From assembly GCA_013360395.1 (NCBI GenBank), contig JABWBQ010000014.1:1-56033 (forward strand): a stretch of DNA of 56,033 bases. Reading direction: 5' to 3'. This stretch comes from Flavobacteriales bacterium (GTDB taxonomy: Bacteria; Bacteroidota; Bacteroidia; Flavobacteriales_F; PHOS-HE28). A program made the position numbers and the translations under genes. Every line of letters starts with the position of its first letter. The first letter of the stretch is position 1. Under the pieces are notes generated by a model. The model had not been told where the DNA came from. It did not search any database and saw only the letters and a program-made list of their open reading frames with translations. Below are positions 6,303 to 31,114 of this stretch, one piece after another.

Positions 6303-6914
6303 GTGGTGCCGGCCCGCCCACCCTGGCTGCTGCGCGTGCTGATGCCGGGGGCCCTGTGGCGCGTGCCCACCCCCGAGCGGGTGCTCTACCTCACCTTCGA
6401 CGACGGGCCCGACCCGGACCTCACCCCCTGGGTGCTGGAGCAACTGGCCGCAGCCGATGCCCGGGCCACCTTCTTCTGCCGTGGCGACCGCGCCGCGGCC
6501 CGCCCGGACCTGGTGGCACGGATGCACGCCGCCGGCCATGCCGTGGGCGGCCACACCTGGGACCACCCCGACGGCTGGCGCACCCGCCTGCGGCCCTACC
6601 TGCGCAACGTGCTACGCGGCCAGCGGACCTTGGGCGGCACCCTCTTCCGCCCGCCCTACGGCCGCCTCACTCCGGCCCAATACACCGCCCTGGGCAGGCG
6701 CTACCGCCTGGTGATGTGGGATGTGCTCACCGGCGACTGGGACCACCGCCTGAGCCCGCAACGCTGCCTGCTGCGCACCCTCCGCGCCACACGGCCCGGC
6801 TCCATCGTGGTCTTCCACGACGCCCCGAAGGCCGCCGAACGGTTGCGGTCGGTGCTGCCCGCGGCACTGGAGCGCTGGCGCCGCGAAGGCTATCGCTTCG
6901 CGTCCCTGGCGTAG
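6303..6914 (+). CDS. Polysaccharide deacetylase family protein (NodB homology)
   Basis: 203 aa. The NodB motifs appear in order: TFDDGPDP (motif 1, catalytic Asp and metal Asp), GHTWDH (motif 2, the two metal His), RPPYGR (motif 3), DVLTGDWD (motif 4) and VFHDAP (motif 5). It should hydrolyse N- or O-acetyl groups from a polysaccharide in a metal-dependent way. The exact glycan is unknown. No signal peptide is obvious; the start LLRVLMPGALWRVPT is typical of the short Bacteroidota members. It uses GTG at 6303 (GTG 6306 is an alternative); the first ATG at 6342 would remove conserved sequence. The 3' end overlaps the convergent rhodanese gene by 25 bp. Confidence 0.88.
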   Translation: MVPARPPWLLRVLMPGALWRVPTPERVLYLTFDDGPDPDLTPWVLEQLAAADARATFFCRGDRAAARPDLVARMHAAGHAVGGHTWDHPDGWRTRLRPYLRNVLRGQRTLGGTLFRPPYGRLTPAQYTALGRRYRLVMWDVLTGDWDHRLSPQRCLLRTLRATRPGSIVVFHDAPKAAERLRSVLPAALERWRREGYRFASLA

Positions 6915-7300
6915 GGCACCGTCGGCAGGCCCGCCTCCTTCCACGCCTCCATGCCGCCCACCAGGTCGTACACCTCGGTGAAGCCGAGCTCCTTGAGCTG
7001 TTTGCCGGCACGGTAGCTGCGGCCACCGGCCGCGCAATAGACGTACACCGGCCGGGCCTTGTCCAACTGGGCCGGGGCGGCGGCCTTGAACCCGCCGGCG
7101 TTGAAGTCGATGAACCGCGCGCCGGCGATCACCCCGGTGGCCCATTCCTCGGGCGTGCGCACATCGAGCACCTGCCCCGGCTTCTCGGCCATGAGCTTGG
7201 CGAAACGGGCGGGGTCGCACTCCACGGCGGCTTCCTGGGCGCAGGCGCCCACGGTGAAGAGCACGGACAGGGTCAGGAACAGGCGGCTGATGGTCTTCAT
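6890..7300 (-). CDS. Rhodanese-like domain lipoprotein
   Basis: 136 aa. The N-terminus is a lipoprotein signal with lipobox V17-G18-A19-C20, so export and lipid anchoring in the envelope are expected. The rest is one rhodanese domain: DVRTPEEWATG, then the active loop YCAAGGRS with catalytic Cys89, then LVGGMEAWKEAGLP. Such single-domain proteins transfer sulfane sulfur to thiophilic acceptors or act as persulfide carriers; the partner is not known. It starts 3 nt after the PorE-like gene stop, so it is the last gene of the long T9SS operon. That setting, beside very cysteine-rich secreted proteins, is suggestive only. TAG at 6890-6892 lies inside the convergent deacetylase gene. Confidence 0.88.
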   Translation of the reverse strand: MKTISRLFLTLSVLFTVGACAQEAAVECDPARFAKLMAEKPGQVLDVRTPEEWATGVIAGARFIDFNAGGFKAAAPAQLDKARPVYVYCAAGGRSYRAGKQLKELGFTEVYDLVGGMEAWKEAGLPTVPYARDAKR

Positions 7301-7303
7301 GGG

Positions 7304-9502
7304 TCAGGGACGGATCTCGGTGACGGTGTATTCCACGCGGCGGTTCTCGGCGTGCTCGGCCTCGGTGCACTGCACCCCGGGCACACAATGGTTCACAAGG
7401 CGTGTGCCACCATAACCCTTCGCCACCAGGCGGTCCTTGGGCACGCCCTTGGCCACCAGGTGGTCCACCACGGCCTGGGCCCGCCGTTGGGTGAGCTTCA
7501 GCCGGGCCTCGCCGTCGCCGCGCGCATCGTCATGCACGGCCAGCTCCACACGCAGGGCGGGGTTCACCTTGAGCCGTTCGGCCAGCTGGTCCAGCTCGGT
7601 GCGCGCCAGGGGGTCCAAGGTGGTGCTCCGGTCATCGGCCCACTTGACGAACTTGAGCCGCACCGGCCGGCCCAGCTCCACGGGCTCGAAGCTCAGGTCG
7701 AAGGCCCCGTTGAGGTCGATGACCCCATTGCGGATACCGATGGAGGACACCGGCAGACTGCGGCTGTAATACCCGGCCTTCTCGAACAGCACCTCGAACT
7801 CCTCGTTGGCCTGCAGCCGGAAACTGAAGTCCCCGCCCTCGCCGGTGACCTGGCTCTCGGAATAGAAACTGCTGAGGTTCACGACGCTCACCGTCATGCC
7901 CTGGATGAAGCCCAGCCGGTCCTTGTAGCGCACCGCACCGCGCAGCCACACGCCCGCATCGGGCACCAGGTGGATGTCCCGCGCCGCGATCTGCTGGTCC
8001 TCGATGCGCTCGGTGCTCAGGTGCTGGCTGCCTTCGTAGCGGCCCTTCATGCGCACCACCACCCGGTATTCCTTGTCCTTCTGCACGCCGAAGGAGTACT
8101 CGCCACGGGCGTCGGTGGTGGTGGTGGCCAGTACGGCGCCGCCCATGTCCTGCAACTCCACGGCCACCTCGGGCACGGGCGTGCCGCTCTCGTCATCGAT
8201 CACGGTGCCGGTGCACAGGAAGCGCTGCTCCAGCGGTCGGTGCATGGTGAAGGCGTAGATGTCGTCGTCGCCCTGGCCACCGGGCCGGTTGCTGCTGAAA
8301 TAGCCGTGCTTGCCCGCCGCATCGATGATGAAGGAGTGGTCGTCCTTGGGGCCGTTGAGCGGCGCCCCCACGTTGATGGCGGTGGTGAAACGGTCGCCCG
8401 CAGCGGGCGGCGCCGCGAAAACGTCCAGCCCCCCCAGCCCGGGATGGCCGTCGCTGCTGAAGTACAGCGTGCCGTCGGCGGCGATGAAGGGCGTCATCTC
8501 GTTGTACGGCGTGTTGACCGACGGCCCCAGGTTCTCGGGCTCGCCCCATTGGCCGCCCAGGTCACGGCACACGTAGATGTCGCTGCCGCCCAGGCCTCCG
8601 GGCATGTCGCTCACGAAGTAGAGGCGTTTCCCGTCCGGGCTCAGCGCCGGATGGCCCACCGAGCACTCGCTGTTGTTGTACAGGAAGGGGTCCACCCCGC
8701 TCCAGGACGAACCGTCCCGACGCGCCCGGTAGATGCCCAGGCGGGTGATGCCCTTGCGGCTGCGCGTGGCGCTGTTGCGCGTGAGGTACAGGGTGCTACC
8801 GTCGGCGCTGCACACCGCAGGGCCGTCGTGCAGCGGGCTGTTGGCCTTGCCCTCGAGCCGCACCGGGGTGCCCAGTGTGCCGTCAGGGTCCCGGGATGCA
8901 CGGTACAGGTCCAGGAAAGGCTGGTCGTTCCACGCCGCGTGCCGCCGGATGCCCACCTTCTCGTTGCGGCTGCTGGTGAAGATCACCTGGTCGGTGCCGC
9001 ACCAAGTGGCGCCCATGTCCGTGTACGGCGTGTTGATGGGCAGCGCGGTGATGGTGAAACGGTCCTGTTCCTCGGTGAACTTGCGCGCGAAGCTGGTGAT
9101 GTTGCTGCGCTGGGGCCCGCCCTCCTGCGGCCGCGTGGCCAGGTAGCGGTCCATCCACTCCTCGGCCAGTTCGTACTTGCCGTTGCTCTTCAGGGCCTGG
9201 GCATAGGCGTAGAGGTCGCGTGGTTCGCGGTTGAGGAATTTCACCACCAAGGCGTACCAGCGCTCGGCCTCCTCGGTATCGCCCAGCTTCATGCTGCATT
9301 CGGCCAGACGTTTGGACACATGCTCGTTCACCGCCCCCAGGTCGGCGGCGGTACGATACTCCTGCATCGCCGGTGCGTAAGCCAGCTGCGCGAAGTGCTG
9401 GTCGCCCGCCCGGATGTGCGCATCGGCGCTGCCCTGCGCCAGCACCCCGCCCGCCAGCAGCAGCGCCAGGAACAGCGGAAGGAGCGAGCGAAGGGTGCGC
9501 AT
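7304..9502 (-). CDS. PorE-like T9SS-associated OmpA-family protein (TPR, PD40 propeller, CRD, OmpA)
   Basis: 732 aa with a signal peptide ending near GVLAQ (residue 23). Domains in order: TPR-like helices (~25-125, EAERWYALVVKFL and YELAEEWMDRYL); a PD40/WD40-like propeller (~145-400, HPALSPDGKRLYFVSD, MTPFIAADGTLYFSSD, HGYFSSNRPGG); a carboxypeptidase-regulatory-like domain (~415-490, SGTPVPEVAVELQD); a second beta region; and a C-terminal OmpA domain (~620-730, LKLTQRRAQAVVDHLVAKGV). This is the domain order reported for PorE of Porphyromonas gingivalis, which links the T9SS PorK/N ring to peptidoglycan. Unlike PorE it has no lipobox Cys. It follows a sprF gene by 4 nt, and an operon-specific anchoring role is inferred. 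Confidence 0.85.
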   Translation of the reverse strand: MRTLRSLLPLFLALLLAGGVLAQGSADAHIRAGDQHFAQLAYAPAMQEYRTAADLGAVNEHVSKRLAECSMKLGDTEEAERWYALVVKFLNREPRDLYAYAQALKSNGKYELAEEWMDRYLATRPQEGGPQRSNITSFARKFTEEQDRFTITALPINTPYTDMGATWCGTDQVIFTSSRNEKVGIRRHAAWNDQPFLDLYRASRDPDGTLGTPVRLEGKANSPLHDGPAVCSADGSTLYLTRNSATRSRKGITRLGIYRARRDGSSWSGVDPFLYNNSECSVGHPALSPDGKRLYFVSDMPGGLGGSDIYVCRDLGGQWGEPENLGPSVNTPYNEMTPFIAADGTLYFSSDGHPGLGGLDVFAAPPAAGDRFTTAINVGAPLNGPKDDHSFIIDAAGKHGYFSSNRPGGQGDDDIYAFTMHRPLEQRFLCTGTVIDDESGTPVPEVAVELQDMGGAVLATTTTDARGEYSFGVQKDKEYRVVVRMKGRYEGSQHLSTERIEDQQIAARDIHLVPDAGVWLRGAVRYKDRLGFIQGMTVSVVNLSSFYSESQVTGEGGDFSFRLQANEEFEVLFEKAGYYSRSLPVSSIGIRNGVIDLNGAFDLSFEPVELGRPVRLKFVKWADDRSTTLDPLARTELDQLAERLKVNPALRVELAVHDDARGDGEARLKLTQRRAQAVVDHLVAKGVPKDRLVAKGYGGTRLVNHCVPGVQCTEAEHAENRRVEYTVTEIRP

Positions 9503-9506
9503 GGCC

Positions 9507-10439
9507 TCAGAAGTAGCGCGGGGAGATGGTGCGCCCCTTGGTGAACTGCAGATCGTAGCTCAGCATCACCTCGTGCGTACCGGCGTTATAGGCGCCCACA
9601 CGGGTGGTGGTGAGGTCGAAGGCGTAGCCGGCGCTCAGCTGCTCGTTGAACCGGTACTGCGCCATCACCCCGAAGGCGTTGCCCACGCGGTACATGCCGC
9701 CCAGCCAGATGCGCTCGCGCAGTAGCACGTTGAGGTTCACGTCCAGCGAGAGCGGCGCACCGGCCACCGCACGCAGCATCACCGACGGTTTGAGCTTGGC
9801 ATCGCGCCCCAGGTCGATCACCGCGCCGCCCAGGAGGAAATAGTGGCGGTCCTCCTTGGCGGTGGTCACCACGGCGCTCTGCGCCTCGGTGAGGGTGTTC
9901 TCCAGCAGCTTGGGCGCCGAAAGGCCCACATACCAGCGCGGGGCGTGCCAGAAGATGCCGAAGCCGAAGTTGGGCAGCAGCTTGCTGCTGATGCTGGTGG
10001 CCGAGGGGTCGGTCTCCACGGTGCTGAGGCCCGCCAGATCGGCCTGGAAGATGTTCGCCCCGCCCTTGAGGCCGAAGGCCAGCCGGGTGTGCGCGCCGGT
10101 GCGGATGCGGTAGGCCAGGTCCAGGAAGGCGCCCGTCTGTCGCACCGGCCCCACACGGTCGTGCAGCACCGTGCCGCCCAGGGCCAGCCCGCCCGCAGGC
10201 AGAGGCGAGTGCAGGGTGAGGGTCTGTGTGCTGGGTGCGCCTTCGAAACCCACCCACTGGTGGCGTGTCAGGGCCATCACCGTGAACACATCGCCGCTGC
10301 CCGCATAGCCCGGGTTGAAGGCCAGCGTGTTGAACATGTACTGGCTGTACAGCGGGTCCTGCTGGGCACGCGCCCGCCCGCCCGCTGCTCCCAGCAGGAG
10401 CAGCAACGGCAGTGCCCGGGTGAAGAAGTGCGCGCTCAT
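9507..10439 (-). CDS. PorP/SprF family type IX secretion system membrane protein
   Basis: 310 aa. Start at ATG 10439 within an ATGA overlap with the upstream giant gene; a longer in-frame extension would have no signal peptide. The signal peptide ends at ARAQQ and is followed by the family signature DPLYSQYMFNTLAFNPGYAGS. The rest alternates short beta-strands as expected for an outer-membrane barrel, ending with GTHEVMLSYDL. PorP/SprF proteins sit in the outer membrane; SprF of Flavobacterium is needed for secretion or attachment of SprB, and family members assist type B CTD substrates. Translational coupling to the 2755-aa substrate suggests it serves that protein. The PorE-like gene follows 4 nt later. 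Confidence 0.92.
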   Translation of the reverse strand: MSAHFFTRALPLLLLLGAAGGRARAQQDPLYSQYMFNTLAFNPGYAGSGDVFTVMALTRHQWVGFEGAPSTQTLTLHSPLPAGGLALGGTVLHDRVGPVRQTGAFLDLAYRIRTGAHTRLAFGLKGGANIFQADLAGLSTVETDPSATSISSKLLPNFGFGIFWHAPRWYVGLSAPKLLENTLTEAQSAVVTTAKEDRHYFLLGGAVIDLGRDAKLKPSVMLRAVAGAPLSLDVNLNVLLRERIWLGGMYRVGNAFGVMAQYRFNEQLSAGYAFDLTTTRVGAYNAGTHEVMLSYDLQFTKGRTISPRYF

Positions 10440-13400
10440 CGGTTCAGGTACACGTAGCCCTTCAACGGTGGGCGGCCGGCGCCAAGCTCGATCACATAGT
10501 AGTAGGTGCCGCTCGGCAACGGACCCGCCAGGCCGGCGCGTTGCGAGGTGCCGTCCCACACCACCGCATGGTTGTCGTAACCTGCGGCACTGTACACCTC
10601 ATCGCCCCAGCGATTGAACACCGCCACGGTGTTCCCCGGCCACCCTTCGATGCCCGGCAGCTGGAAGGTCTCGTTCACCCCGTCGCCGTTCGGGGAGAAC
10701 AGCTCCGGCACGAACACGTCGTCCTCGAACACGCAGGGGCTCTCCCCTTCCACCAGCCGCGGCGCGCAGTCGTTCCCGTCGGTCACGGTGCAGCTGAAGC
10801 CCTGGCTGGTCAGGATGGGCACGCTGGTGAAGACATGGGGTGCGGTGCCGGACAGCACACCCTCCAGCCCGGTGACGGTGTAGGTGGCCGCATCGCCGCC
10901 GCTGACGGTGAACTGGACGACATAGGTGCGGTCCTGCTCGTTGCAGAGGCGCGTCACTTCACCCACGCTCACACCTTCCTGCAGGGTGATCGTGACGATG
11001 GCCGCGGTGGGCGCGCAACCCGGCACCTGCACCGCGTACTGGAACCCATAGGTGCCGGGGCCCAGCAGGGTGCTGTTCAGGGCACCGTCCGCCACCGTGC
11101 CGGTGGAGTTCAGCTCGGTCCAGGTGCCGCCCACCGCGGGGTCGCCGCCAAGGGCCTCGAACAGCGCGAAGGCGGTGTCGGTGTTGCACATGGTGGTGCT
11201 GCTGTCCACGCCGGCACTGAGCGGCTGGTTCACGCTGACGTTCACCGTGGCCGTGGCGACGGGGCACGGGGCCACGCCCGGGACCGTGTAGGTGTAAGTG
11301 CCCGGCGGATCGGTCGCCGGCTCGAAGCTGCCGTCGTGGGCGGCACCCAGCGGGCCCGTCCAGGTACCGCCGGCCTGTGGGCTTCCCGTGAGCGCGGCGA
11401 AAAGGTCCACCGATGCGGCATTGGCGCAGGTCTGCACCGTACCGGGGCCTCCGGCGTCCGGGGCGGGGGCCACGTGGATGATCACACCCACCGACACCAG
11501 CCCGCAGGCCACGGTCTGCACTTCATAGCTGAACGGATAGTTGACACCGGTGGGCAACTGACCGGCCTGGAGGATCGATCCGCTCAACTGACCCGTGCCC
11601 GAGCCATCGGTCCAGGTGCCCGTTTGCACCGTGCCCGCCGGCAGGGAGTTGAACAGGTCGTACGGCCCGTTGCCGCAGATGGTGTCGATGGCCCCCGTGC
11701 CGATGTCGATGCCGGCGGAGACCTCCACGGTGACCGTGGCCTGGTCGTTCGGGCAGGGGCTGGTACCGGCCACGGTGTACACGAAGGTGTAGGTGCCCAA
11801 CCCGGTGAGGGTGGCATTGAAGAGGCTGTCGGTGAGCGCACCGGTGCCACCCGGGTCGGACCAGACACCACCCGGGTCGTACGGGGCTTGCAGGCCCTCG
11901 AAGAGGTCCTGGGCCATCTCGGTCACGCATACCGGCAGGGTGAGGCCGGTGCCTGCGTTGGGTTCCTGCACTTCGTTCACCTGGAGGGTGGCCGTATCGT
12001 TGGCACAGGCACCAGCCCCTTCGATCACGTACTGGTAGTCACCGGGGCCGTTCAACGCCGGATCGTACATGGCGGTGCCGAGCGGCAGCTGGTCGGGACC
12101 GAGCCAGTAGCCGCCCTGTCCCGGGGTACCGCCCAACTGCCCGGTCATATCGAAGGGCGCCTGGGAGGAACACACATCCACGGCATTATCCCAGCCCGCG
12201 TTCACCGCCTGGTTCTCGGTGATGGTCACCGTGGCCTGATCGGGGAAGCAGAACAACGACCCCTGCACGTTGTACACGTAGAGCCCGGGGTTGTGGATCG
12301 CCGGGTTGTAGATGCCGCTGTAGGGCACATTGCCCGGGGCCAGCCATGCCCCGTCCGTGTCGGCGCCCGGCAGCAGGCCGATCAGCGCCACCAGGCCACC
12401 GTCGCTGCACACACTGAGGCTGGTGTCCGGCCCGGCATACGGCGCCTCCTCCACCGTCATGGTCACGGTGGCCTGTGCCTGGGGACAGTTGCCGATGGCA
12501 GGCACCGTGTAGGTGTAAACCCCCGAGCTGTCCACCGCCGGGTTGAACTGGCCGCTGTGGACCTGCCCGCCCGGCCCCGTCCAGGTGCCGTTGGCGTCGG
12601 GGTCGCAGCCGTTGCCCAGGAACTGCACCAACAGGAACGGATTGGCATTGTCGCACACCGTCTGGGCGCTGGAACAGCCCGCGTTGGGCCCCTCCAGCAC
12701 GGACACCACCAGGTTCGCCGTATCGCCCTCGCAGGTGGACGACGGTGCCAGGATGTACGCAAAGGGCCACTGGCCCACCCCCGCCAGTGTAGCGTTGAAC
12801 ACCCCGTTGGCCATGGCCCCCGAACCGCCCAGGTCCATCCAGGTACCTCCGGGTTGCGGTGTGCCTTGCAGCAGATCGAAGAGCAACACCAGGCTTTCGC
12901 TCTCGCACACGTCGGCGGCGCTGTCATCACCGGCGTCCAACCCCTGCACCACCTGCACGGTGACGGTGGCCGATGCCGGGGCGCATGGGGTCGTGCCGGC
13001 CACCGTGTAGGTGAACGTGTAGCTGCCCGTGGGCACACCCGTGGCGTTCCAGGTGCCTCCGTTCAGGGTTCCCTGGCCGCTGTTGTTGGTCCAGCTGCCG
13101 CCCGGTTGGGGCGAACCACCAAGGCCGGTGATGAGGTCCACCGACGGGGCATCCACACAAACAGGCAGCGCACCGGATTGGCCGGCGTTCGGGGCGGGCA
13201 CGATGACGATCTGCACCGTGGCGCTCACCGTGGTGCAGGGCGCTGCCGCCTGGATGGTGTACACGTACGCACCGGGCGGATCGCTGTTCGGATCGAAGTT
13301 GCCGGTGGGCACCGGGCCGTTGGGGCCGCTCCACGTGCCGCCGGGGTCCGGGGTGCCGTTCAGCAGGGTGGCCAATGCGACCACCGGACCGTTGCTGCAC

Positions 13401-16400
13401 AAGGTGCGCGCCGCATCCACCCCCGGGGTGGGCTGTTCGTTCTCGAAGATGGTCACCCGTGCCGTGTCGTTCACGCAGGGGCTGTTGCCGTACAGGATAT
13501 AGCTGTACGTGCCTTCGGCCGAAACGCCCGGCACATAGGTGCCCGAGAAGGGCCCGAGGTTGGGGTCCCGCCAGGTGCCGCCTGGTTCCGCGCCCCCTTG
13601 CAACAGGGCGAAGAGGCTGAACGATGGTTCGGTGCTGCAGACCTCATCCACCCCATCGGTGCCCGCCCAAGGCTGGTGGTTCTCGATCACGGTCACCGTG
13701 CTCGAGTCGGCAGGGCAGGCCTGCACACCTCCCACGCGGTAGGTGTACACCCCTGCGGGACTTGTTCCGGGGAAATAGATGCCCACCACCACGGTCCCGT
13801 TGGGGTCCCGCCAGGTGCCGTTCAGGTCCGGGCCACCGGTGAGCAGACCGATCAGGCCGAAGGGGTCCTCATCGTCGCACACGATCGCCACCCCATTCCC
13901 CCCTGCATCGGGTGCGTCGTTCACCACCACCGTCACCCGTGCCGTATCGTTCGGACAAGGCGCCTGGGCCGTGCGGATGTACTTGTACACGCCGGCCGCA
14001 TCGAGGCTCGGCTGGAAGAGCCCGTTGTGCGGGAGGTTCACGGGGTTGAGCCAGTTGCCCCCAGGCTGCGGGCCACCGGTGATCTGGTTGAACAGGTTGA
14101 TCGTGGGGCCCGGACGGCAGACCACCGTGGTGACGTCGTTGCCGGCATTCACGCTGGCGCTCACCCCCACGGTGACGGTGGCCGATACCGCCGGGCAGGG
14201 TGCCGGGCCGGTCACCGTGTACACGTAAACCCCGGGCGGGTCCTGGCCGGGGCAGAAGACCCCGTCGTCCGTCCCGAGCGGCCCGCTCCAGCTGCCCCCC
14301 GGCGAAGGCGTTCCGCCCAGTTGGGTGAAGAGCGAGAAACAGGGCTGGGTGGAACACACCGATCGCGTGACGCTGACGCCAGGACTGAGCGGTGTGCTCA
14401 CCGATACGATGACGGAGGCCGAATCGGCCGGGCATGGCGCCGTTCCCTGCACCTTGTACTTGTACGCCCCCGGCGGGTCGGTCGCAGGGTTGAACAGGCC
14501 GCCGTGCACCTGCCCCAGCGGGTTGGTCCACACCCCGGTGTTGTCCGCACCGCCCAACAAGGGGAACAAGTTCACCGTGCCACCCGTGGCACAGACCGTG
14601 GTGGAGGTGCTGACGCCGGCATTGGCGTGGGTGTTCACGAACACACTGGCCACGGCGCTGTCGGCCGCACACGCCCCAGTGGAAGGCACCACGTAGGTGT
14701 AATCACCGTCGGGGTCCACCAGGGGGTCGAACAGCACATCGGTGGGCAGCCCGCCGGGGTCCAACCAGAAGCCACCCGGATCAGGCGTGCCGGTGAGGAC
14801 CGTGCTCAGCAGGAAGGAGCCCGCATCGTCACAGACCGAGATCTGGCCGTTGCCACCGGCATCGGGCTCCAGGTCCTTGGTGACCGTGAGGACAGCGAAG
14901 GCGTTGCTGCACGGGAAACTCCCCGCCACGGTGTACACATAGGCCCCTGCGGGATCGACGCCCGGCACGAACAGGTTGGCCTGGGGCAGGTTCCCCGGGT
15001 CGGTCCAGGTCCCGGTGAGTTGAGGCGTACCACCCAGGCTATCGGTCATCACGAACGGCGCATCGCTCTCGCACACGCTGGCCGACCCTCCCAAGCCCGC
15101 GTTGGGCGGTGCCGTTTCACTTACCGTCACCGTGGCGATCGCGTCCTGGCACGGTGTATTGCCATTCACATGGTATTGATAGACACCGGGCTGGTCGACC
15201 AGGGGGTTGTAGCTGGGCGAATGGGGCTGGTTGTTGAACTTCCAGGAACCGCCCCCGTCCGGCGAACCGCCCAGGACACCGAAGAGCTGGAAGGAACTGC
15301 CGTTGCCACAGACCACGGTGTCGGCGCTCAACCCGGCATCCGGAGCACCCACCACGTTCACGGTGAGCACCGCCTGATCGTCCGGACAGAAACCACCCCC
15401 GTCCAGGAAATAGGTGAAGGTGTAACTGCCCGGGGCCACCAAGGTGGCGTTGAACAGCCCGTTGGTCACCGCGTTGGTGTTGTCGTTGTCGATCCAGTTC
15501 CCGCCCGGATCGGGGCCGCCGTTCAGGTGCGCGAACAGGTCATAGGCCACCGTGTTGCCGCACACCGACCGGAACGTGTTGTTCCCGGCGTCCAGCTGGG
15601 GCACGATGGTGACCGTCACCTCGGCCGTGTCATTGGGACATTGGCCCGAACCGGGCACCACATACAGGAGATCGTAGTCGTCGTTCGGCAGGCCGTTGGT
15701 CTGGAGCACACTGCCGGTCAACTGTCCGGTGCCGTCCACATCGATCCATGTGCCGCCAGCGGTGTACGGCGGCTGCAACAGGGTGAACAGGTCCAGCGCA
15801 CCCGAGTTGGTGCACACGGTCGCGTCCCCATCACCGCCGGCCACGGGCGCATTGTTCACCACCACCGTCACGGTGGCCGAGGCCGCCGCGCACGGTGGCG
15901 TCCCGCTCACGGTATAGGTGTATTGACCGGCCGGGCTGGTGCCCGGGGTGAAGGTGCCGTTCATCGCACCCCCGGGACCGCTCCACGAACCGCCCGGGGC
16001 CGGCGCGCCTGCGAGCGCCTCGAAGAGCGCGAACGCCGGTGCGTTGCTGCAGACGGTGATGGTGCTGTCGCCACCGGCATCGGGCGGTGCCACCTCCTGC
16101 ACGACCACCGACGCGGTGGCGTTCGCACAAGGCGGGGTCCCGGTCACGGTGTATGTGTACACGCCGGCCACATCCACCTGCGGGTCGTAGATGGGGCCAT
16201 GCGGGTCGGTGCCCGGTCCGGTCCAGCTTCCATTCCCATCAAAGGGGCCCACCAGCACCAGGCTCAAGGCGAACGAGGAGCCGTTGCCGCACACCAGGGT
16301 GTCGCCGGTGATGCCCGCGTTCGGGGCCTGGACCACGCTCACCGTGGCGAAGGCCGTGTCGTTGACGCAGGGTGCGATGCCGCTCACCACGTAGCGGTAG

Positions 16401-18703
16401 GCGCCCGGCGGGCTCTGGCCGGGGACAAAATCGCCCGAAGGCACGGGCACACCGTTGGGGTCGGTCCAGGCACCCGTGGCCATGGGCGCGCCGCCCAGCA
16501 CCGACAGCAGGGCGAAGCTGCCGGTGTTGCTGCAGACCGTGGTGCTGCCATCGTTCCCCGCGCGCGGGGCGATGCGTCGCGTGATCTGCACGGTGGCCGT
16601 CGCATCCGCACAGGGAGGCGTGCCGACCACGGTGTACGTGTAGGTGCCGCCCACATCGGTGGCCGGGTCGTACTGCCCGGAATGCGGTTGGCTGCCCGGG
16701 TCGGTCCAGGTCCCACCGGGGTCGGCTCCCGTCAACAACGCCAGCAGGTCCACCACCGGATCATCGCTGCACACGGTGAGCGTCGTGCTGGTCCCGGCGT
16801 GCGGTGCCGTGGATTGGTCCACATCCACCGTGGCGACGGCATTGGCGCAGGGGGCCAGCCCCGTCACCGTGTACGTGTACAGACCGGGCGGTGAGGTGCC
16901 CGGGACATAGTTGCCGGACGGCACCGCCTGCCCGTTGGGGTCGGTCCAGGTCCCGTTCACCGCCGGCGAGCCCCCCAGGCTGTCCACCAAGGCGAACACC
17001 GCGTCGGTGCTGCACACCAGGGCCGAGCCCGGGCTGCCGGCGTTCGGTGCGGGCGTCACCCCGATGGTCACCGTGGAACTGGCATCGGCGCACGGTGCCT
17101 GCCCCTGGACCGTGTAGGTATAGATCCCCGGCGTATCGGTGCCCGGATCGAAGGTCCCGGCGAAGGGCTGCGCGTTCGGATCGGTCCAGCTGCCGCCCGC
17201 ATCCGGGGTGCCGCCCAGCACCGTGAACAAGGACACGGGGCCATCCGTGGAACAAAGCTGCAGGGTGGCGTTGGTGCCCGCATCGGGCGCCATCACCAAC
17301 TGCACGGTGACCGTGGCGGTGGCCGGAACGCACGGGGCCTGTCCGGTCACGGTGTAGGTGTACGTGCCGGGCGCGCTGGTGCCCGGGATGAAGGTGCCGC
17401 TGAAGGCCGCGTTGCCCGGATCGGTCCACGACCCGGTGAGGTCCGGTGATCCGCCCAGGGAGTCCACCAGGGCGAAGGAGCCGTGCGTACTGCACACCAC
17501 CACCGTGCGCGAGCTGCCGGCATCCGGGGCCTGGCGGATGGTGATGGTGAGCTGCGCGGAAGCGTCCGCGCAGGGCGGGACCCCGGCGACGGTGTATGTC
17601 CAAACCCCGGCTGGCCCGGCGGCCGGGTCGAACTGGTCTCCGGGGATCGGACCGTTCGGACCCGTCCATTGGCCTCCGGCATCGGGGTTTCCGTTCAACT
17701 GCCCGGTGAGGGAGAACGGCGCATCGTCGCTGCACACGGTGATGCTGCGGTCACCGCCAGCATCGGGCGCGGCCTGCTCGTTGACCGTCACCGTGGCCGT
17801 GGCGTCCACGCAGGGGGGCGCGCCGGGAATGGTGTAGGTGTAGAGTCCCGCAGGCGACACGCCGGGGGTGTAGGTCGGCGGGTGCGGCCCTCCGGGACCG
17901 GTCCATGTGCCTCCCGGGTCCGCGGTGGGGCCGAGCAGGGCGAACAGGCTGAAGGGTGCATCACTGCTGCAGACCCCGGTGGAGGTGCTCACCCCGGCCA
18001 CAGGCTGTTGGTTCACGGTCATGGTGACGGTGGCCGAGGCCACCGGGCACCCCCCCCCCGCGCTCACCGTGTAGGTGTAGGCACCGGGAGGGTCCACGGC
18101 GGGGTCGAAGGAGGAGCCGTGCGGCGCGCTGGTCGGGTCGGTCCAGGAACCGCCCGGATCGGGGGTGCCGCCCAAGGCGGCGAACAGGTCCACCGGCCCG
18201 TCGGTGTCGCACACGGTGACCCCGGTGGAGCTGCCTGCATCGGGCGCCGGGCCGATGCTGGCCGCCCAACCGGCCAGGTGGTCCGCCCCATCGCTCACCC
18301 AGTGGAAGGTGAGACAGCCGCTGGGGCCGCTGGCCGTGATCGTCTGGCCCAGCAGGGAGTTGTTCCCGTTGCCCGTGGCCAGCAGGGGGTCCGCCGTGCT
18401 GGTCCCGTCATGGATGAACAGCTGGTCCGCCGTTCCCGGCGCGACGGCCCAGGCCGTGAAGGTCACCGACACGTTGGAGCCTGAACCGGCCCCGTTGGCC
18501 GGGCAAAGGGTGGCCGTCAGGTCCTCGTTGTCGCCATACGGCCCACCGGCCCCGCCGCTGTCCAGGAACTCGCCGCTGCACGCCTGCCAGGCGGCGTTGC
18601 CCATCACGAAAGTCTGGGCCTGGAGCGGTGCCGGATGGAGCAACGCCCAACCCAGGGCCGCGCCGAGCGCGAGGACGGGAAATGGGGTGCTGCTACGGAT
18701 CAC
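10436..18703 (-). CDS. Giant secreted repeat protein with 30 two-cysteine repeats and T9SS type B C-terminus
   Basis: About 2755 aa. The preferred start is GTG 18703, giving the signal peptide VIRSSTPFPVLALGAALGW...LQA cleaved after residue 29. An in-frame ATG at 18784 would add 27 residues that spoil the signal. Residues ~30-150 look CUB-like (acidic, with YGDNEDLTATLCP and FIHDGTSTADPLL). Residues ~151-2577 are 30 tandem repeats of ~80 aa with the pattern AG(x7)VC, then FxLFxxLGG, GGxWTDP, YTYTVxGxxPC and ATVTV. Nearly every unit carries two cysteines. The end (from ~2660) is a type B, gliding-motility-associated domain with FSPNGDGVNETF and VFNRWGDEVY. It is a likely filamentous adhesin. 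The repeat is not the SprB unit of the neighbouring gene and I do not recognise a named family. Confidence 0.88.
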   Translation of the reverse strand: MIRSSTPFPVLALGAALGWALLHPAPLQAQTFVMGNAAWQACSGEFLDSGGAGGPYGDNEDLTATLCPANGAGSGSNVSVTFTAWAVAPGTADQLFIHDGTSTADPLLATGNGNNSLLGQTITASGPSGCLTFHWVSDGADHLAGWAASIGPAPDAGSSTGVTVCDTDGPVDLFAALGGTPDPGGSWTDPTSAPHGSSFDPAVDPPGAYTYTVSAGGGCPVASATVTMTVNQQPVAGVSTSTGVCSSDAPFSLFALLGPTADPGGTWTGPGGPHPPTYTPGVSPAGLYTYTIPGAPPCVDATATVTVNEQAAPDAGGDRSITVCSDDAPFSLTGQLNGNPDAGGQWTGPNGPIPGDQFDPAAGPAGVWTYTVAGVPPCADASAQLTITIRQAPDAGSSRTVVVCSTHGSFALVDSLGGSPDLTGSWTDPGNAAFSGTFIPGTSAPGTYTYTVTGQAPCVPATATVTVQLVMAPDAGTNATLQLCSTDGPVSLFTVLGGTPDAGGSWTDPNAQPFAGTFDPGTDTPGIYTYTVQGQAPCADASSTVTIGVTPAPNAGSPGSALVCSTDAVFALVDSLGGSPAVNGTWTDPNGQAVPSGNYVPGTSPPGLYTYTVTGLAPCANAVATVDVDQSTAPHAGTSTTLTVCSDDPVVDLLALLTGADPGGTWTDPGSQPHSGQYDPATDVGGTYTYTVVGTPPCADATATVQITRRIAPRAGNDGSTTVCSNTGSFALLSVLGGAPMATGAWTDPNGVPVPSGDFVPGQSPPGAYRYVVSGIAPCVNDTAFATVSVVQAPNAGITGDTLVCGNGSSFALSLVLVGPFDGNGSWTGPGTDPHGPIYDPQVDVAGVYTYTVTGTPPCANATASVVVQEVAPPDAGGDSTITVCSNAPAFALFEALAGAPAPGGSWSGPGGAMNGTFTPGTSPAGQYTYTVSGTPPCAAASATVTVVVNNAPVAGGDGDATVCTNSGALDLFTLLQPPYTAGGTWIDVDGTGQLTGSVLQTNGLPNDDYDLLYVVPGSGQCPNDTAEVTVTIVPQLDAGNNTFRSVCGNTVAYDLFAHLNGGPDPGGNWIDNDNTNAVTNGLFNATLVAPGSYTFTYFLDGGGFCPDDQAVLTVNVVGAPDAGLSADTVVCGNGSSFQLFGVLGGSPDGGGSWKFNNQPHSPSYNPLVDQPGVYQYHVNGNTPCQDAIATVTVSETAPPNAGLGGSASVCESDAPFVMTDSLGGTPQLTGTWTDPGNLPQANLFVPGVDPAGAYVYTVAGSFPCSNAFAVLTVTKDLEPDAGGNGQISVCDDAGSFLLSTVLTGTPDPGGFWLDPGGLPTDVLFDPLVDPDGDYTYVVPSTGACAADSAVASVFVNTHANAGVSTSTTVCATGGTVNLFPLLGGADNTGVWTNPLGQVHGGLFNPATDPPGAYKYKVQGTAPCPADSASVIVSVSTPLSPGVSVTRSVCSTQPCFSLFTQLGGTPSPGGSWSGPLGTDDGVFCPGQDPPGVYVYTVTGPAPCPAVSATVTVGVSASVNAGNDVTTVVCRPGPTINLFNQITGGPQPGGNWLNPVNLPHNGLFQPSLDAAGVYKYIRTAQAPCPNDTARVTVVVNDAPDAGGNGVAIVCDDEDPFGLIGLLTGGPDLNGTWRDPNGTVVVGIYFPGTSPAGVYTYRVGGVQACPADSSTVTVIENHQPWAGTDGVDEVCSTEPSFSLFALLQGGAEPGGTWRDPNLGPFSGTYVPGVSAEGTYSYILYGNSPCVNDTARVTIFENEQPTPGVDAARTLCSNGPVVALATLLNGTPDPGGTWSGPNGPVPTGNFDPNSDPPGAYVYTIQAAAPCTTVSATVQIVIVPAPNAGQSGALPVCVDAPSVDLITGLGGSPQPGGSWTNNSGQGTLNGGTWNATGVPTGSYTFTYTVAGTTPCAPASATVTVQVVQGLDAGDDSAADVCESESLVLLFDLLQGTPQPGGTWMDLGGSGAMANGVFNATLAGVGQWPFAYILAPSSTCEGDTANLVVSVLEGPNAGCSSAQTVCDNANPFLLVQFLGNGCDPDANGTWTGPGGQVHSGQFNPAVDSSGVYTYTVPAIGNCPQAQATVTMTVEEAPYAGPDTSLSVCSDGGLVALIGLLPGADTDGAWLAPGNVPYSGIYNPAIHNPGLYVYNVQGSLFCFPDQATVTITENQAVNAGWDNAVDVCSSQAPFDMTGQLGGTPGQGGYWLGPDQLPLGTAMYDPALNGPGDYQYVIEGAGACANDTATLQVNEVQEPNAGTGLTLPVCVTEMAQDLFEGLQAPYDPGGVWSDPGGTGALTDSLFNATLTGLGTYTFVYTVAGTSPCPNDQATVTVEVSAGIDIGTGAIDTICGNGPYDLFNSLPAGTVQTGTWTDGSGTGQLSGSILQAGQLPTGVNYPFSYEVQTVACGLVSVGVIIHVAPAPDAGGPGTVQTCANAASVDLFAALTGSPQAGGTWTGPLGAAHDGSFEPATDPPGTYTYTVPGVAPCPVATATVNVSVNQPLSAGVDSSTTMCNTDTAFALFEALGGDPAVGGTWTELNSTGTVADGALNSTLLGPGTYGFQYAVQVPGCAPTAAIVTITLQEGVSVGEVTRLCNEQDRTYVVQFTVSGGDAATYTVTGLEGVLSGTAPHVFTSVPILTSQGFSCTVTDGNDCAPRLVEGESPCVFEDDVFVPELFSPNGDGVNETFQLPGIEGWPGNTVAVFNRWGDEVYSAAGYDNHAVVWDGTSQRAGLAGPLPSGTYYYVIELGAGRPPLKGYVYLNR

Positions 18704-18838
18704 GTTCGGGCGCGAGGGGGTGCAAGGTAACCAAAACACCCCTTGGAGGTCCAGCCCAGCGCGGGTTTTCGGCCGGTCGCACACCGTTGCCGATGAAGGG
18801 TCCCAACGTCCGGATACCGCATGACCGGGAGCCTGGGA

Positions 18839-19774
18839 TCAAGGCGTGGGGGCCGCGGCGGGGACCGCAGGCACCTTGGCCGCAGGTCGTTCCTTGCCGA
18901 AGGTGATGGCCAGCATCACCTCGTGCGTACCCTGGCTGTAGCGGCTCAGGCCGGTGGTGGTCAGGTCGAAGGAATAGCCGAACTGGAACATCTTCTTCAG
19001 CCAGCAGCCCACCATGAGCGGAATCGCATCGTTGGAGCGCCAACCGCCACCGATCCACAGGATGTCCTTGTAGTTCAAGGTCAGGTTGAGGTCGAGCTTC
19101 GGAGGCACCGGGTTCACGTACTTCACCAGGAAACTTGGTTCCAGGCGAAGATCCTCCGAGAACCGGATGCGGTATCCACCGGTGGCGAAGTAGTGCCTTT
19201 CCAACCGGCTGAGCGCCTGTTCCTGCGTATCGAAGAACCAGATGCGGTTGTTGAACAACTGCGGGGCCGTGGCGCCGAACCAATAGTTCGGGTGGTGCAG
19301 CAGGAAGGCGAAGGTGGCGTCGGGCAGCACGTCCCCGCGTAACTGGTCGTCCATCACCGGATCGCTGCCGTCGTGGAAGGTGATCTTCGATCCGTCGATG
19401 AGGAACTGCACCAGCCCCCCGCTGATCGAGAGGCCCAGGCGGAGCTTTTCGGTGAGCTGCAGATGGTAGGCGTAGGTGAGCTGGAAACCGGTGCGCCGCG
19501 TGGGGCCCACGTTGTCGGTGAACAGGAAGCCGCCCAACCCCATGTGCCGGCCCACGGGCGTGGTGGCGCTCAGCATGAAGGTGCGCGGCGCATCCTGTAC
19601 GCCCACCCACTGGTAGCGGTGCGCGCTGCGCAGCTCGAACCAGGGCCGTGATCCCGCCACGGACGGGTTGTAGAGGTAGTCCTGGCTCACATACTGGCTG
19701 AGCTGCGGCAGTTGCTGTGCGCTCGCCGTGCCGGCGACCATCAGCAGCGAAAGAACTTGGTGGCGCAGGTTCAT
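18839..19774 (-). CDS. PorP/SprF family type IX secretion system membrane protein
   Basis: 311 aa. Signal peptide MNLRHQVLSLLMVAGTASA, then the family N-terminal motif QLSQYVSQDYLYNPSVAGSRPW and RYQWVGVQDAPRTF. Repeated short beta-strands and a terminal GTHEVMLAITFG suggest an outer-membrane barrel. ATG 19774 lies 4 nt after the stop of the 3127-aa SprB-repeat gene, so it is the presumptive partner for that substrate. It ends 135 nt before the start of the next giant gene, the longest gap in the array. The gap shows only a weak -7-like TACCTTGC about 20 nt before the GTG start. Confidence 0.92.
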   Translation of the reverse strand: MNLRHQVLSLLMVAGTASAQQLPQLSQYVSQDYLYNPSVAGSRPWFELRSAHRYQWVGVQDAPRTFMLSATTPVGRHMGLGGFLFTDNVGPTRRTGFQLTYAYHLQLTEKLRLGLSISGGLVQFLIDGSKITFHDGSDPVMDDQLRGDVLPDATFAFLLHHPNYWFGATAPQLFNNRIWFFDTQEQALSRLERHYFATGGYRIRFSEDLRLEPSFLVKYVNPVPPKLDLNLTLNYKDILWIGGGWRSNDAIPLMVGCWLKKMFQFGYSFDLTTTGLSRYSQGTHEVMLAITFGKERPAAKVPAVPAAAPTP

Positions 19775-19778
19775 GGCG

Positions 19779-25700: not shown

Positions 25701-28700
25701 CACCGTCAGGCCGATGGCCCCATCGCATACATCGGCACAGCTCGCCGGGGTCACTTGGGGCACGGCCTGGATCCCGCTGGGGGTACTGATCGTGAAGCTG
25801 ATCGTGGTGTCGCAGCCGCTGGTGTCGACCACTTCCAGCACATAGGCCCCCGGGCACAGGCCCGTCGCCGTCGGAGTGCCCTGTCCGCCACCAGGAGCGG
25901 GGGTCCAGGTGAACGAGTAACCCGGTGTTCCGCCGTTCACCACGGCACTGGCCGATCCGTCACACGAGCCGCCGCAGCCGGCAGGAACGACCGTCAGTTG
26001 CACGTCCAGCGGGGCCGGCGCATCGATCGTGAAGGCCAGCGTGGTGTCGCAACCCGCCGCATCGGTCACCGTCAGGCTGTGTGGACCCGCACAAAGACCG
26101 GTGGCGGTGGGCGTGCCCTGTCCGCCGCCCGGCGCGGGGGTCCACAGGTAGGTGTGACCCGGGGTGCCACCAACCACGGTGGCCGTGGCCGTGGCATCGC
26201 AGGCATCGGCACAGGTGGCTCCGGTCATGGCCAGTTGCACGTTCAGGGCCGGTGGTGCCTGCAGATCGATCGTGAGGGTGCTGTCGCAGCCGCCGGAGCT
26301 GATCGTCACCGTCCATAGGCCGGCGCAAAGGCCCGTGGCCTGCGGTTGGCCCTGGCCGTTGGGCGGCTGCGGCGTCCAGGAGTAGGTGAAGGTCCCACTG
26401 CCTCCCGTGGGCGCCAGGGTGATGCTCCCGCTGCATGCGCCGGCACAGGTCGGGGCCACCACCGTCTCGTTGGGCAGGATGTCCGGCGGGGCGGTCACCG
26501 TGAAGGCGATGGTGCTGTCGCAGCCGAGCGCATCGGTCACGGTGAGCTGATAGGCACCGGCGCAGAGGCCGGTGGCCGTCGGCGTGCCCTGGCCCGCACC
26601 CGGGGCCGGGGACCACAGGTAGGTGTAGCCCGGCGTGCCGCCGGTGACGATCACCCCGGCCTCACCATCGCACATACCCGGGCAGGATGCGTCCTGGACG
26701 TTGAGCGAGAACTGCAGGGGCACCGCGTCCAGGATGGTGTGGTCCACCGTGGTGGTGCATCCGTTCGCATCGGTGATGAGCACGCTGTATGCGCCCGGGC
26801 AGAGGCCGGTGGCATCGGGGGTCCCCTGTCCACCGCCCGGAGCCGGGGACCACAGGTAGGTGTAGCCCGGGGTGCCGCCGCTCACCACCACGGAGGCCGT
26901 GCCATCGCACTGTCCACCGCAGGAGACGTCCGTGTGGGAGGAGGAGGCGTCCAGCGGCGGAGGTGCGGTGAGCGCGAAGGTCAACGTGGTGTCGCAGCCG
27001 TTGGCGTCCATCACCGTCACGCTGTACGGACCGGCGCACAAAGCGGTCGCCGAGGGCCCGCCCTGTCCGTTGGACCAGTTGATGGTGTAGCCCGGGGCGC
27101 CGCCGGAAACCTGCAGCGTGGCCGCACCGTCGCAAAGACCGGCACAGCTCACCGAGGTGGTGTCCAGGGCGACGACGAGCGGGGGCGGTGCGGCGATGGT
27201 GAAGGCGATCAGGGTGTCGCAACCCGCCGCATCGGTCACCAACAGGGTGTGGTTGCCGGCGCAGAGCCCGGTGGCGTTCGCCGTCCCCTGTCCCGCGCCG
27301 GGTGCGGGGTCCCAGAGGTAGATATAGCCCGGGGTGCCGCCGCTCACCACCACACCGGCACTGCCGTCACACGCGTTGGCGCAGGTGGCATCCACCGCGG
27401 TCAACGTGGCCAGCAGCACGGGCGGCGAGCCGATGCTGAAGGGTACGAGCGTGTCGCAACCCGTGGCCTGGTCGGTGATCAGCACCGTACCACTGCCGGC
27501 GCACAGGCCGGTGGCCGTGGCGGTGCCCTGCCCGCCCGCCGGCGCCGGCGTCCACTGGAAGGTGAACGGGCCCGCCGCACCGGTGGGGGCGACCGTGGCC
27601 GTGCCGTCGCAGGCATCGGCGCAGGTGGCCGGAGCGGTCACCAGGTTCGGCACGATCGGCGCAGGCGCCACCAGGTTGAAGGTGATCAGCGTATCGCACC
27701 CGTTCGCATCGGTGACAAGCACGCTGTGGCCACCACCGCACAGGCCGGTCACTTGGGGTGTGCCGTCGCCCGCCGGCGTACCGGGCTCCCAGTCGTAGGT
27801 GTAACCCGGCGTGCCGCCTGTGACGGTCACCTGGGCCGTTCCGTCACAATCGCCGGCACAACTCGGCGGGGCGCTCTGCAGGGTGGCCTCCAGGGGCAGC
27901 AGGGCGATGGTGAAGGTGGTGTCGAACACACAGCCGTTGGCGTCCGTGATGCGCAGGGTGTTCGTGCCGGCGCAGAGCTGCACGGGGTTGGGGTCCGTCT
28001 CGGCCCCGTTGTTCCAGTCGTACTGATAACCGAAGCCGGTGCCACCACCGGGGAAGGTGATCGCCGTACCGTTGCACACGTTGGCGCAGGCCGGCGGGTT
28101 GAGCCCGAAGAACACCACGCTCAAGGGCGGTGGCGGGGATACCAGCACCGAGGCGAAGCAGCCCACGTTCTGCCCCAGGTCGGTGACGATCACCAGCTTG
28201 TTGCCCGAACAGATGTTGGTCCACGGCAACGCGGTGCCCGTTCCACTGGGGCCGCCCTGCCACTGGATGGCGAAGGGCCCGATGCCGCCCTGCACGGACA
28301 CGTTCACCGCACCGTCGCACGCCCCGCTGCAGCTCACCCCGAAGCCGTTGTAGTCGCTGGTCAGCAACGCGTTCACCTGGAAGGGCGTCTGCCCGGCCCC
28401 GGTGCCGCAGTTCACGGCCTGGCGCATCAGTTCCTCCTGCCCCACCGGGGTGCCGTCCCAGTGTTGCGCGTTGCCGTTCACCAGCAGCACGGTGGACGGG
28501 GACCAGGTCACGTGTGCGGCACCAGCACCCTCCAGCCGCCCCACGAGCAACGTGGCTCCCTGGGCTTCCAGCCCGCTTGCGGCCTTGGGGCCCACCGAGA
28601 GAGCGCCGGCCTTCAGCACACCGCCGTTCATCCGAAGGGCGCCGCGCTCCAACCGCAAGGTGTGCGCATCGTCGATGGCCAGGGCGCTCAGCACGTCCCA

Positions 28701-29162: not shown

Positions 29163-29168
29163 GGGGTC

Positions 29169-30107
29169 CTATTCGAAGATGGGGCAGCTCACGATGCGCT
29201 TGCTGGGATCGATCGGGATGCAGGGCGTGATGCCCAGGATCACCTCGTGGGTGTTGCTGCTCGCCGCCTTGAGCTTCGAGGTGGTGATGTCGTAAGCGTA
29301 GCCCAGGGTGAAGAACTTCAGGAAGCCGAACTTCACCATGGCCACCAGTGCGTCCTGGTTGCGGTAGCTCGCCCCGATACCGAACACGCGGTTCCACTCC
29401 AGCATGGCGTTGATGTCCATGGCCATCGGCGATCCCGGCGAGAGCTTGATCAGCGCACTGGGCGTCACCGAGGTCTTGCGGCCGATGCGCCAGCGGTAAC
29501 CCGCGCTCACCATGTAGTGCGGGCTCAAGCGCGAGTCCACCCCGATGCCGGGAACACGGTTGTTCAGCAGTTGATGCACGCTGAGGCCCGCCCAGTAGGT
29601 CTTGCTGTACAACCAGATCCCCGGGGTGATGATCGGAAAGACGAAGGCGGAATTGCGGCTGGCCAGCACCGGGTCCGTATTGTCGGCCACCAGCGTCTGG
29701 CCTACATCGAACTTCTGCTGCTTGACCCCCAGGAAGGTGCCCATGGCCAGGTAATGGTCCATGTTCATCCGCACGTGGTAGGCGTAAGCAAGGTTGATCA
29801 GGGTGTAGCCCAGCGGACCCGTGTCGTCGGCCTCCATGTAACCGCCGATGCCGTGCTTGCCCTTGAGGTAGGGTTTGCGCTTGTTGCGGATGGTGGCGTG
29901 CACACTGGCCCAGCCCGTGGTGGGTGCGTTCTCGAAGCCCACCCACTGCTTGCGGAAACCCAGGCGCACGTCGATGCAGTCCTTGCTGCCCGCCACCGCT
30001 GGGTTGATGTTGAAGTAGTTGAGGACGTTCTGTGAGTACTGCGGCACCTGCTGGGCCCGCACCGTGGCGGTGCAAAGCACGACCGGCAGCAGCAGCAGCG
30101 CCCTCAT
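29169..30107 (-). CDS. PorP/SprF family type IX secretion system membrane protein
   Basis: 312 aa. ATG 30107 is in an ATGA overlap with the stop of the preceding T9SS substrate gene. An upstream extension of this frame runs through that gene and is not credible. Signal peptide MRALLLLPVVLCTATVRA, then QQVPQYSQNVLNYFNINPAVAGS, the PorP/SprF signature, with RKQWVGFENAP and a late NTHEVILGI strand. Translational coupling assigns it to the 336-aa type B substrate upstream. It ends 6 nt before the start of the SprB-repeat giant gene, keeping the operon continuous. Confidence 0.92.
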   Translation of the reverse strand: MRALLLLPVVLCTATVRAQQVPQYSQNVLNYFNINPAVAGSKDCIDVRLGFRKQWVGFENAPTTGWASVHATIRNKRKPYLKGKHGIGGYMEADDTGPLGYTLINLAYAYHVRMNMDHYLAMGTFLGVKQQKFDVGQTLVADNTDPVLASRNSAFVFPIITPGIWLYSKTYWAGLSVHQLLNNRVPGIGVDSRLSPHYMVSAGYRWRIGRKTSVTPSALIKLSPGSPMAMDINAMLEWNRVFGIGASYRNQDALVAMVKFGFLKFFTLGYAYDITTSKLKAASSNTHEVILGITPCIPIDPSKRIVSCPIFE

Positions 30108-31114
30108 CGCACGATGGTGATCGAGCCGGTGTAGGCCGCCGCCGAGCCGCCCTCCCGGGTGTTGAGCACGATGTGGTAGTAGTAGGTGGCCATCGGCAGT
30201 CGCGCCCCACCGTTGGTGCCGTCCCACGGCTCGTCATACCCCACGCTGCGGTGCACGCGCTGGCCCCACCGGTCGTAGATGGTCACCTCGCACGATGGGT
30301 AGTCCGAGATCCCGAAGATGGTCCAGGTGTCGTTGTGGCCGTCGCCGTTCGGGGTGAAGGTGTTGGTGGGCTGGATCCTCCGGATCACCTCCACCACCAC
30401 TTCGTCGCTGTACGTGCAGCCGTTCAGTTGCGTGGTCACCGTGTAGGTGGTGGTCTCCGACGGGTTGGCCACCGGATCGGCAATGGCGTCGCCGCTCAGC
30501 CCCGCGTTCGGGGTCCAGGTGTAGGTGGTGCCCCCCGTGGCCTCCAGCTGCGCGTACTCGCCCTCGCCGATCTCCACGTCGTCACCCGCACTGAAGTCCA
30601 CCCCCACGATGTCCGCCCCGGGGCCTCCGATGGTGACGCCGAACTCGCACTGTGCATTGATCGTGGCGCCGTTGTCCGCCACCCCGCTCACCAGCACCCA
30701 GTACTGCGTGTTGGGCGCCAGGCTGTCGGTGATCATGGTGAAGTCCACTGAATCCTGCGTACAGTCGCCCACCGCCGTGAAACTGCCCGGCAGGCAGCTG
30801 CCATCGCCGCTCAGGACGATCACGTTCATCTCATTGTCCATGCCGGCCACCGCCGGACAGTCGAGCCCGTTGATGGCCACGTTCACCGCGCCGCCCTGCG
30901 AGTTGGTGGTGAAGCTGTACCACAACACGTTGTTGGTGCCGGGGCAGAAACCCGGGATGCCCACCGCGCCCGTGTTGTTGCCCGCCAGCGGCTGCTGGGC
31001 ACAGAGCGTCAAGGCCGATGCACAATCGTCGTTCACCGGTTGCGCCCAGCACAGGAGCGCATGCACCAGAAGGGGCGGCAGCAGGGCGGTTCGGAGCGGG
31101 TTGTGCACGGTCAT
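30104..31114 (-). CDS. Secreted protein with T9SS type B (gliding-motility-associated) C-terminal domain
   Basis: 336 aa from ATG 31114; ATG 31126 would add four residues before the signal peptide. The signal peptide ends near LLCWAQ, and mature PVNDDCASALTLCAQQPLAGNNTGA opens a ~130-aa beta domain seen at the N-termini of many Bacteroidota secreted proteins. A short PKD-like region (AGDDVEIGEGEYAQLEATGG) leads to the type B sorting domain with FTPNGDGHNDTW, VTIYDRWGQRVH and YYYHIVLN. It is the first gene of the operon and the smallest of three substrates. With one module and no repeats it might be an adhesin tip or minor subunit (inference). Confidence 0.88.
   Translation of the reverse strand: MTVHNPLRTALLPPLLVHALLCWAQPVNDDCASALTLCAQQPLAGNNTGAVGIPGFCPGTNNVLWYSFTTNSQGGAVNVAINGLDCPAVAGMDNEMNVIVLSGDGSCLPGSFTAVGDCTQDSVDFTMITDSLAPNTQYWVLVSGVADNGATINAQCEFGVTIGGPGADIVGVDFSAGDDVEIGEGEYAQLEATGGTTYTWTPNAGLSGDAIADPVANPSETTTYTVTTQLNGCTYSDEVVVEVIRRIQPTNTFTPNGDGHNDTWTIFGISDYPSCEVTIYDRWGQRVHRSVGYDEPWDGTNGGARLPMATYYYHIVLNTREGGSAAAYTGSITIVR

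Follow-up and report, generated by a model that had tools for sequence, protein, structure and literature searches.

Shuttle tails in a composite Flavobacteriales gene block point to different inner partners for three T9SS adhesins

Introduction

Whether an adhesin exported by the T9SS glides or stays in place is a question that recent papers answer by gene neighbourhood only. Modules made of a CTD-bearing substrate, SprF and PorE, the distinction between static and mobile adhesins, and a C-x-C disulfide are already published (PMC9143113, PMC12618676, PMC12635249): a PorP-PorE-substrate complex has been demonstrated (PMC9143113), and in F. johnsoniae the periplasmic tail of SprF carries a C-x-C motif that is disulfide-bonded to GldK, a component of the moving track (Liu et al., PMC12635249). 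Here we ask which partner would hold each of three adhesins whose genes, each followed by a PorP/SprF shuttle gene, lie ahead of a single PorE-like gene in a Flavobacteriales bacterium. A sequence-only reading of this locus had proposed one continuous operon encoding a self-contained adhesin system, in which every substrate has a dedicated shuttle and a private peptidoglycan anchor.

Results

Organization of the gene block

The window, a 56,033-nt contig (JABWBQ010000014.1; C97) of a 3.68-Mb genome, contains a block of eight minus-strand genes spaced from 4-nt overlaps to 6-nt gaps, with one gap of 135 nt (Table 1). The proposed order of three substrate/SprF pairs, a PorE-like gene and a rhodanese gene, and the gaps between them, were confirmed on this strand: the sub1/SprF1 and sub3/SprF3 junctions are ATGA overlaps, and the genes are otherwise separated by 6 nt (SprF1-sub2), 4 nt (sub2-SprF2 and SprF3-PorE-like) or 3 nt (PorE-like-rhodanese). 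Given the 4-nt overlaps, translational coupling is plausible. The block has a G+C content of about 68% and is flanked upstream by a PEP synthase-like gene on the plus strand and downstream by a convergent TMEM260-like gene. Profile searches placed a TIGR04131/PF13585 CTD, above cut-off, at the protein end of all three substrates, and TIGR03519/PF11751 covered the whole length of all three SprFs (235-255 bits against a cut-off of 90.55).

Table 1. Features of the gene block, with positions in the window
Feature	Position	Strand	Evidence
sub1, T9SS substrate with type B CTD, 336 aa	30104..31114	-	TIGR04131 72.4 bits, PF13585 81.9 bits; congener orthologue 5' of SprF1
SprF1, PorP/SprF shuttle, C-tail C-x11-C-P-I-F-E (twin Cys)	29169..30107	-	TIGR03519 234.5 bits
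sub2, SprB-repeat giant with type B CTD, 3127 aa	19779..29162	-	25 PF13573 stretches, CHU_C, TIGR04131
SprF2, PorP/SprF shuttle, without Cys or PRYF tail motif	18839..19774	-	TIGR03519 249.3 bits
SprF2-sub3 gap, 135 nt, probable border of two modules	18704..18838	-	wide in most congeners
sub3, repeat giant with type B CTD, 2755 aa, GTG start	10436..18703	-	PF13585 84.4 bits, TIGR04131 51 bits
SprF3, PorP/SprF shuttle, C-tail ...RTISPRYF	9507..10439	-	TIGR03519 254.6 bits
PorE-like protein, 732 aa; TPR, TolB-like propeller, CRD/Ig, OmpA domain	7304..9502	-	NF052230 339.6 bits, Pfam, model pLDDT 88.9, PorE C-terminal domain 6top
Rhodanese-domain lipoprotein, outside core, lineage-specific neighbour	6890..7300	-	PF00581; only in G000, G005, G007, G008

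In the host genome we counted 11 PorP/SprF genes and 33 matches to the type B CTD, along with several PorE-like genes; its C21, C100 and C57 loci are single CTD-SprF-PorE modules. By SprF3, the nearest named relatives are Flavobacteriales MAGs. Elsewhere in the window, the plus strand encodes at 805-2349 a protein whose CTD is of type A (TIGR04183), so that both CTD types occur in this stretch, and a 97-nt tRNA-Ala(agc) called by ARAGORN at 49566-49662, under long ORFs, is probably spurious given its odd length and anticodon.

Parts of the block resemble known systems. The order sub3-SprF3-PorE is that of the F. johnsoniae substrate, shuttle and PorE-like genes Fjoh_3952-Fjoh_3951-Fjoh_3950, for which static anchoring was proposed (PMC12618676); there, however, a single pair is found, whereas the present block adds a two-pair module upstream. 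P. gingivalis PG1035-PorP-PorE (PMC9143113) likewise combines a substrate, a PorP-family shuttle and a peptidoglycan-binding PorE with four domains alike, but the block's protein has no lipobox Cys, falls below the PorE cut-off and has three pairs ahead of it. As in F. johnsoniae SprB-SprF (PMC12635249), the SprB-repeat giant sub2 is followed by an SprF with no PorE directly next; SprF2, in contrast, has no Cys in its tail and thus lacks the C-x-C that ties F. johnsoniae SprF to GldK. The block's Cys tail is instead found on SprF1, with the spacing C-x11-C rather than the experimentally tested C-x-C.

Each shuttle co-varies with the neighbouring substrate

Comparing CTD and SprF distances over 137 adjacent pairs gave r = 0.82, the highest value in 1000 within-genome permutations being 0.21. 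Neighbours also matched among same-genome paralogues (r = 0.826; permuted maximum 0.465 in 1000 within-genome trials); a lack of matching between neighbours had been set beforehand as grounds for rejecting the proposal. In addition, in 910 of 1757 between-family comparisons the best partner was the same for CTD and for SprF, as compared with 395 expected by chance. Cognate pairing of each SprF with the neighbouring CTD is therefore supported by co-variation, in line with the published shuttle specificity (PMC12618676), and on both counts the idea of a dedicated shuttle for each substrate is supported.

Shuttle tails correlate with the adjacent gene

We took a census of shuttle tails covering 205 proteins in 48 genomes and 18 family groups, leaving out P. 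gingivalis PorP and F. johnsoniae. All shuttles ending in PR[YF]F (71/71) lay directly 5' of a PorE-like gene, and this ending occurred in none of the 125 shuttles without a downstream PorE. In a second sample of named genomes, which was drawn with PRYF-type queries and so tests only the direction from PR[YF]F to PorE, PorE followed in 68 of 73 cases; of the five exceptions, two are stacks of two PR[YF]F pairs with a single PorE at the end (L286/L288 in a Bacteroidales MAG, as judged from contig positions, and L343 in Flavobacterium sp. 7A). In two Flavobacterium genomes, 14 of 15 PRFF shuttles precede PorE, and five shuttles with a CxC tail have none. The gene following orphan C-x11-CPxF shuttles was gldJ in 17/17 cases, and that following V/P-R-F-L shuttles was gldK in 16/18, the other two consisting of one shuttle that precedes PorE and one without a visible partner.

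The make-up of the PorE-like neighbour also varied with the tail: a Cys-tail shuttle accompanied 14 of 15 PorE-like proteins lacking OmpA and 3 of 63 bearing it, and a Pfam scan of eight of the OmpA-less proteins found no OmpA domain. Exceptions to the correspondence of tail and partner are the second pair of the host C57 locus, L266, L263, L351, L345/L346 and L386. Across some 50 genomes, the last residues of a shuttle predict whether its neighbour is a wall anchor, gliding track or secretion motor gene. In the literature searched, which may be incomplete, we found no mention of a PR[YF]F tail, of its connection with OmpA-bearing PorE or of the tail/neighbour classes.

Several related arrangements were seen in the same collection. 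One orphan C-x11-C-P-x-F shuttle lies directly 5' of gldJ at G000:C134:383-1273 (L151). A variant module carries an OmpA-less PorE-like gene upstream of an SprF with a V-P-C-[AP]-K-F tail (L155, L100, L107, L192 and others). The PorP/SprF barrel also occurs in natural C-terminal fusions to OmpA, SPOR (weak) or TPR domains (L264, L407, L412; L171, L177; L196).

Kinship limits what these counts can say, and since Fisher tests on them ignore it we do not take such tests as evidence of independence. On a tree built without the tail residues, PR[YF]F required 7 changes and PorE linkage 5, only 3 independent contrasts fell on supported branches, and PR[YF]F formed nearly one clade; the tail/PorE association could mostly reflect one old event or inherited linkage. 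The tails might thus be no more than markers of old paralogue clades that kept different neighbours by chance, and the few changes, with contrasts too few for significance, are what such a history would leave. We nevertheless consider it unlikely. Over deep divergence, the tail has stayed as constant as the core of the barrel, and in SprF3, P307, R308 and F310 do not vary across 24 homologues with a mean column identity of 51%; Cys tails are found in three or more separated lineages; whether the neighbour has OmpA goes with tail type; and Cys in the SprF C-tail is experimentally required for track attachment (PMC12635249). The invariant residues and the repeated Cys-tail lineages, together with the OmpA/SPOR fusions at the same end, speak for selection on the tail.

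The block appears to join two modules

In five congeners (G002, G004, G007, G008 and G010), sub1-SprF1-sub2-SprF2-sub3-SprF3-PorE and the convergent TMEM260-like gene form one uninterrupted stretch, and the broken contigs of the remaining ones are compatible with the same seven-gene order. The expectation that the order would recur in other genomes thus held for these seven genes and failed for the rhodanese gene, which is not kept with the core. The tight gene order is real but does not by itself establish one continuous operon, since in most congeners the SprF2-sub3 gap is wide, at about 100 nt or above. Around this gap and at the 3' end of the block, a scan with a promoter consensus that leaves out Bacteroidota promoters found no promoter-like site, and a terminator scan gave one weak terminator-like site in the 135-nt gap, close to the shuffled background.

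In a genome of another family (G063, locus L254), a CTD-bearing frame of 336 residues, an SprF1-like shuttle, a CTD-bearing giant of 3509 residues and an SprF2-like shuttle are followed by an unrelated gene, with no sub3, SprF3 or PorE at that locus. Because half of the block thus stands alone there, and because the SprF2-sub3 gap is wide, the sequences suggest a composite of two joined modules, sub1-SprF1-sub2-SprF2 and a standard sub3-SprF3-PorE module, a type also present elsewhere in the host genome. Recent tandem duplication of one pair was considered and rejected, as SprF1-3 are mutually just 30-34% identical and SprF3 is nearer to another locus (44%). Both halves occur separately and the block contains neither translocon nor motor, which does not fit a self-contained adhesin system.

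Alternatively, the genes could form one operon and one machine, with all three shuttles converging on the single PorE and the tail differences neutral. The order conserved in the genus and the two other stacks with a common terminal PorE would agree with this. However, both shuttles of each of those stacks carry PR[YF]F, unlike this block and its congeners, in which SprF3 alone does, and the first half of the block occurs without PorE in L254; we regard convergence of all three shuttles as distinctly improbable. Across orthologues, the PRYF of SprF3 is kept in congeners, the SprF1 tail motif is kept in 10/10, and SprF2 lacks a motif in 10/10 of those counted.

The SprF3 tail and the PorE-like protein

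In the structural model of SprF3, which matches FadL (a FadL-type barrel) and chain F of the T9SS translocon entries 8gl6 and 6h3i, the last barrel strand ends at residue 297 and the tail (298-310) is disordered. We take chain F of both entries to be PorV. A PDB sequence search with SprF3 returned chance matches only. An aromatic last residue is common among outer-membrane proteins, and the terminal aromatic of PRYF could serve as an outer-membrane assembly (BAM) signal instead of a docking peptide, but this is very improbable, as PRYF lies beyond the last modelled strand in the disordered tail and the same barrel family also has members that end in C-P-x-F or V-R-F-L or lack a motif.

The NF052230 score of the partner protein lies under the curated 600-bit cut-off, and we therefore call it PorE-like rather than PorE. 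Its TPR, propeller, CRD and OmpA domains follow the PorE order (Pfam, model and Foldseek, the latter matching a TolB propeller and 6top), and peptidoglycan binding is predicted purely by homology to 6top. Outside OmpA, conservation is highest in the propeller (42/276 positions, as compared with 2/146 in the TPR); for this reason we do not claim the TPR groove as a docking site. Peptide binding is known for TolB propellers (PDB entries 4jml and 2ivz), so that docking of the SprF3 tail on the PorE propeller is a reasonable guess by analogy. Group-specific PorE positions were also listed, but the OmpA-less sequences in this comparison are too few for an interpretation.

Discussion

We propose, with a probability of about 0.6, that the block joins two modules and that the tail of each shuttle decides the inner anchor of its adhesin. 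Each of the three adhesins would be secreted and then held at the surface by the adjacent PorP/SprF shuttle, whose short periplasmic tail past the last barrel strand would determine its inner holding partner. A SPRYF tail would dock on PorE, the OmpA domain of which would grip peptidoglycan and keep the adhesin static; a Cys-P-x-F tail would bond through a disulfide to the GldJ/GldK track, whose movement would make the adhesin mobile; and a shuttle with neither tail would have no such link.

On this proposal, sub3 would be wall-anchored via SprF3, sub1 possibly track-linked via SprF1, and sub2 held by SprF2 alone. Judging by the associations of tail with neighbour and of OmpA with Cys tails, the PorE-like protein most likely serves SprF3 only. 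There is one such gene for three pairs, and a PRYF tail on SprF3 only; the private peptidoglycan anchor suggested for each substrate is therefore not supported. SprF1 is a candidate for track linkage: its Cys spacing is that of the gldJ-linked class, but it belongs to a different clade. GldJ and GldK are both present in the host genome, and the reactive GldK Cys is conserved, RQGCF aligning with the RGCF of PorK. Because SprF2 is untagged in every orthologue counted, we infer that, of the three adhesins, it is the SprB-repeat protein sub2 for which no link is predicted, contrary to what its name suggests.

More broadly, the tails may act as an address code, in which PR[YF]F, C-P-x-F, V-R-F-L or a fused OmpA/SPOR domain would send an adhesin to the wall (PorE), the track or the motor ring, the block carrying three tail types; we give this generalization even odds. 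If true, such a code would let the destination of an adhesin be read from the last residues of its shuttle in any Bacteroidota genome, and a short tail swap would change that destination, so that whether an adhesin glides or stays would be directly testable in F. johnsoniae.
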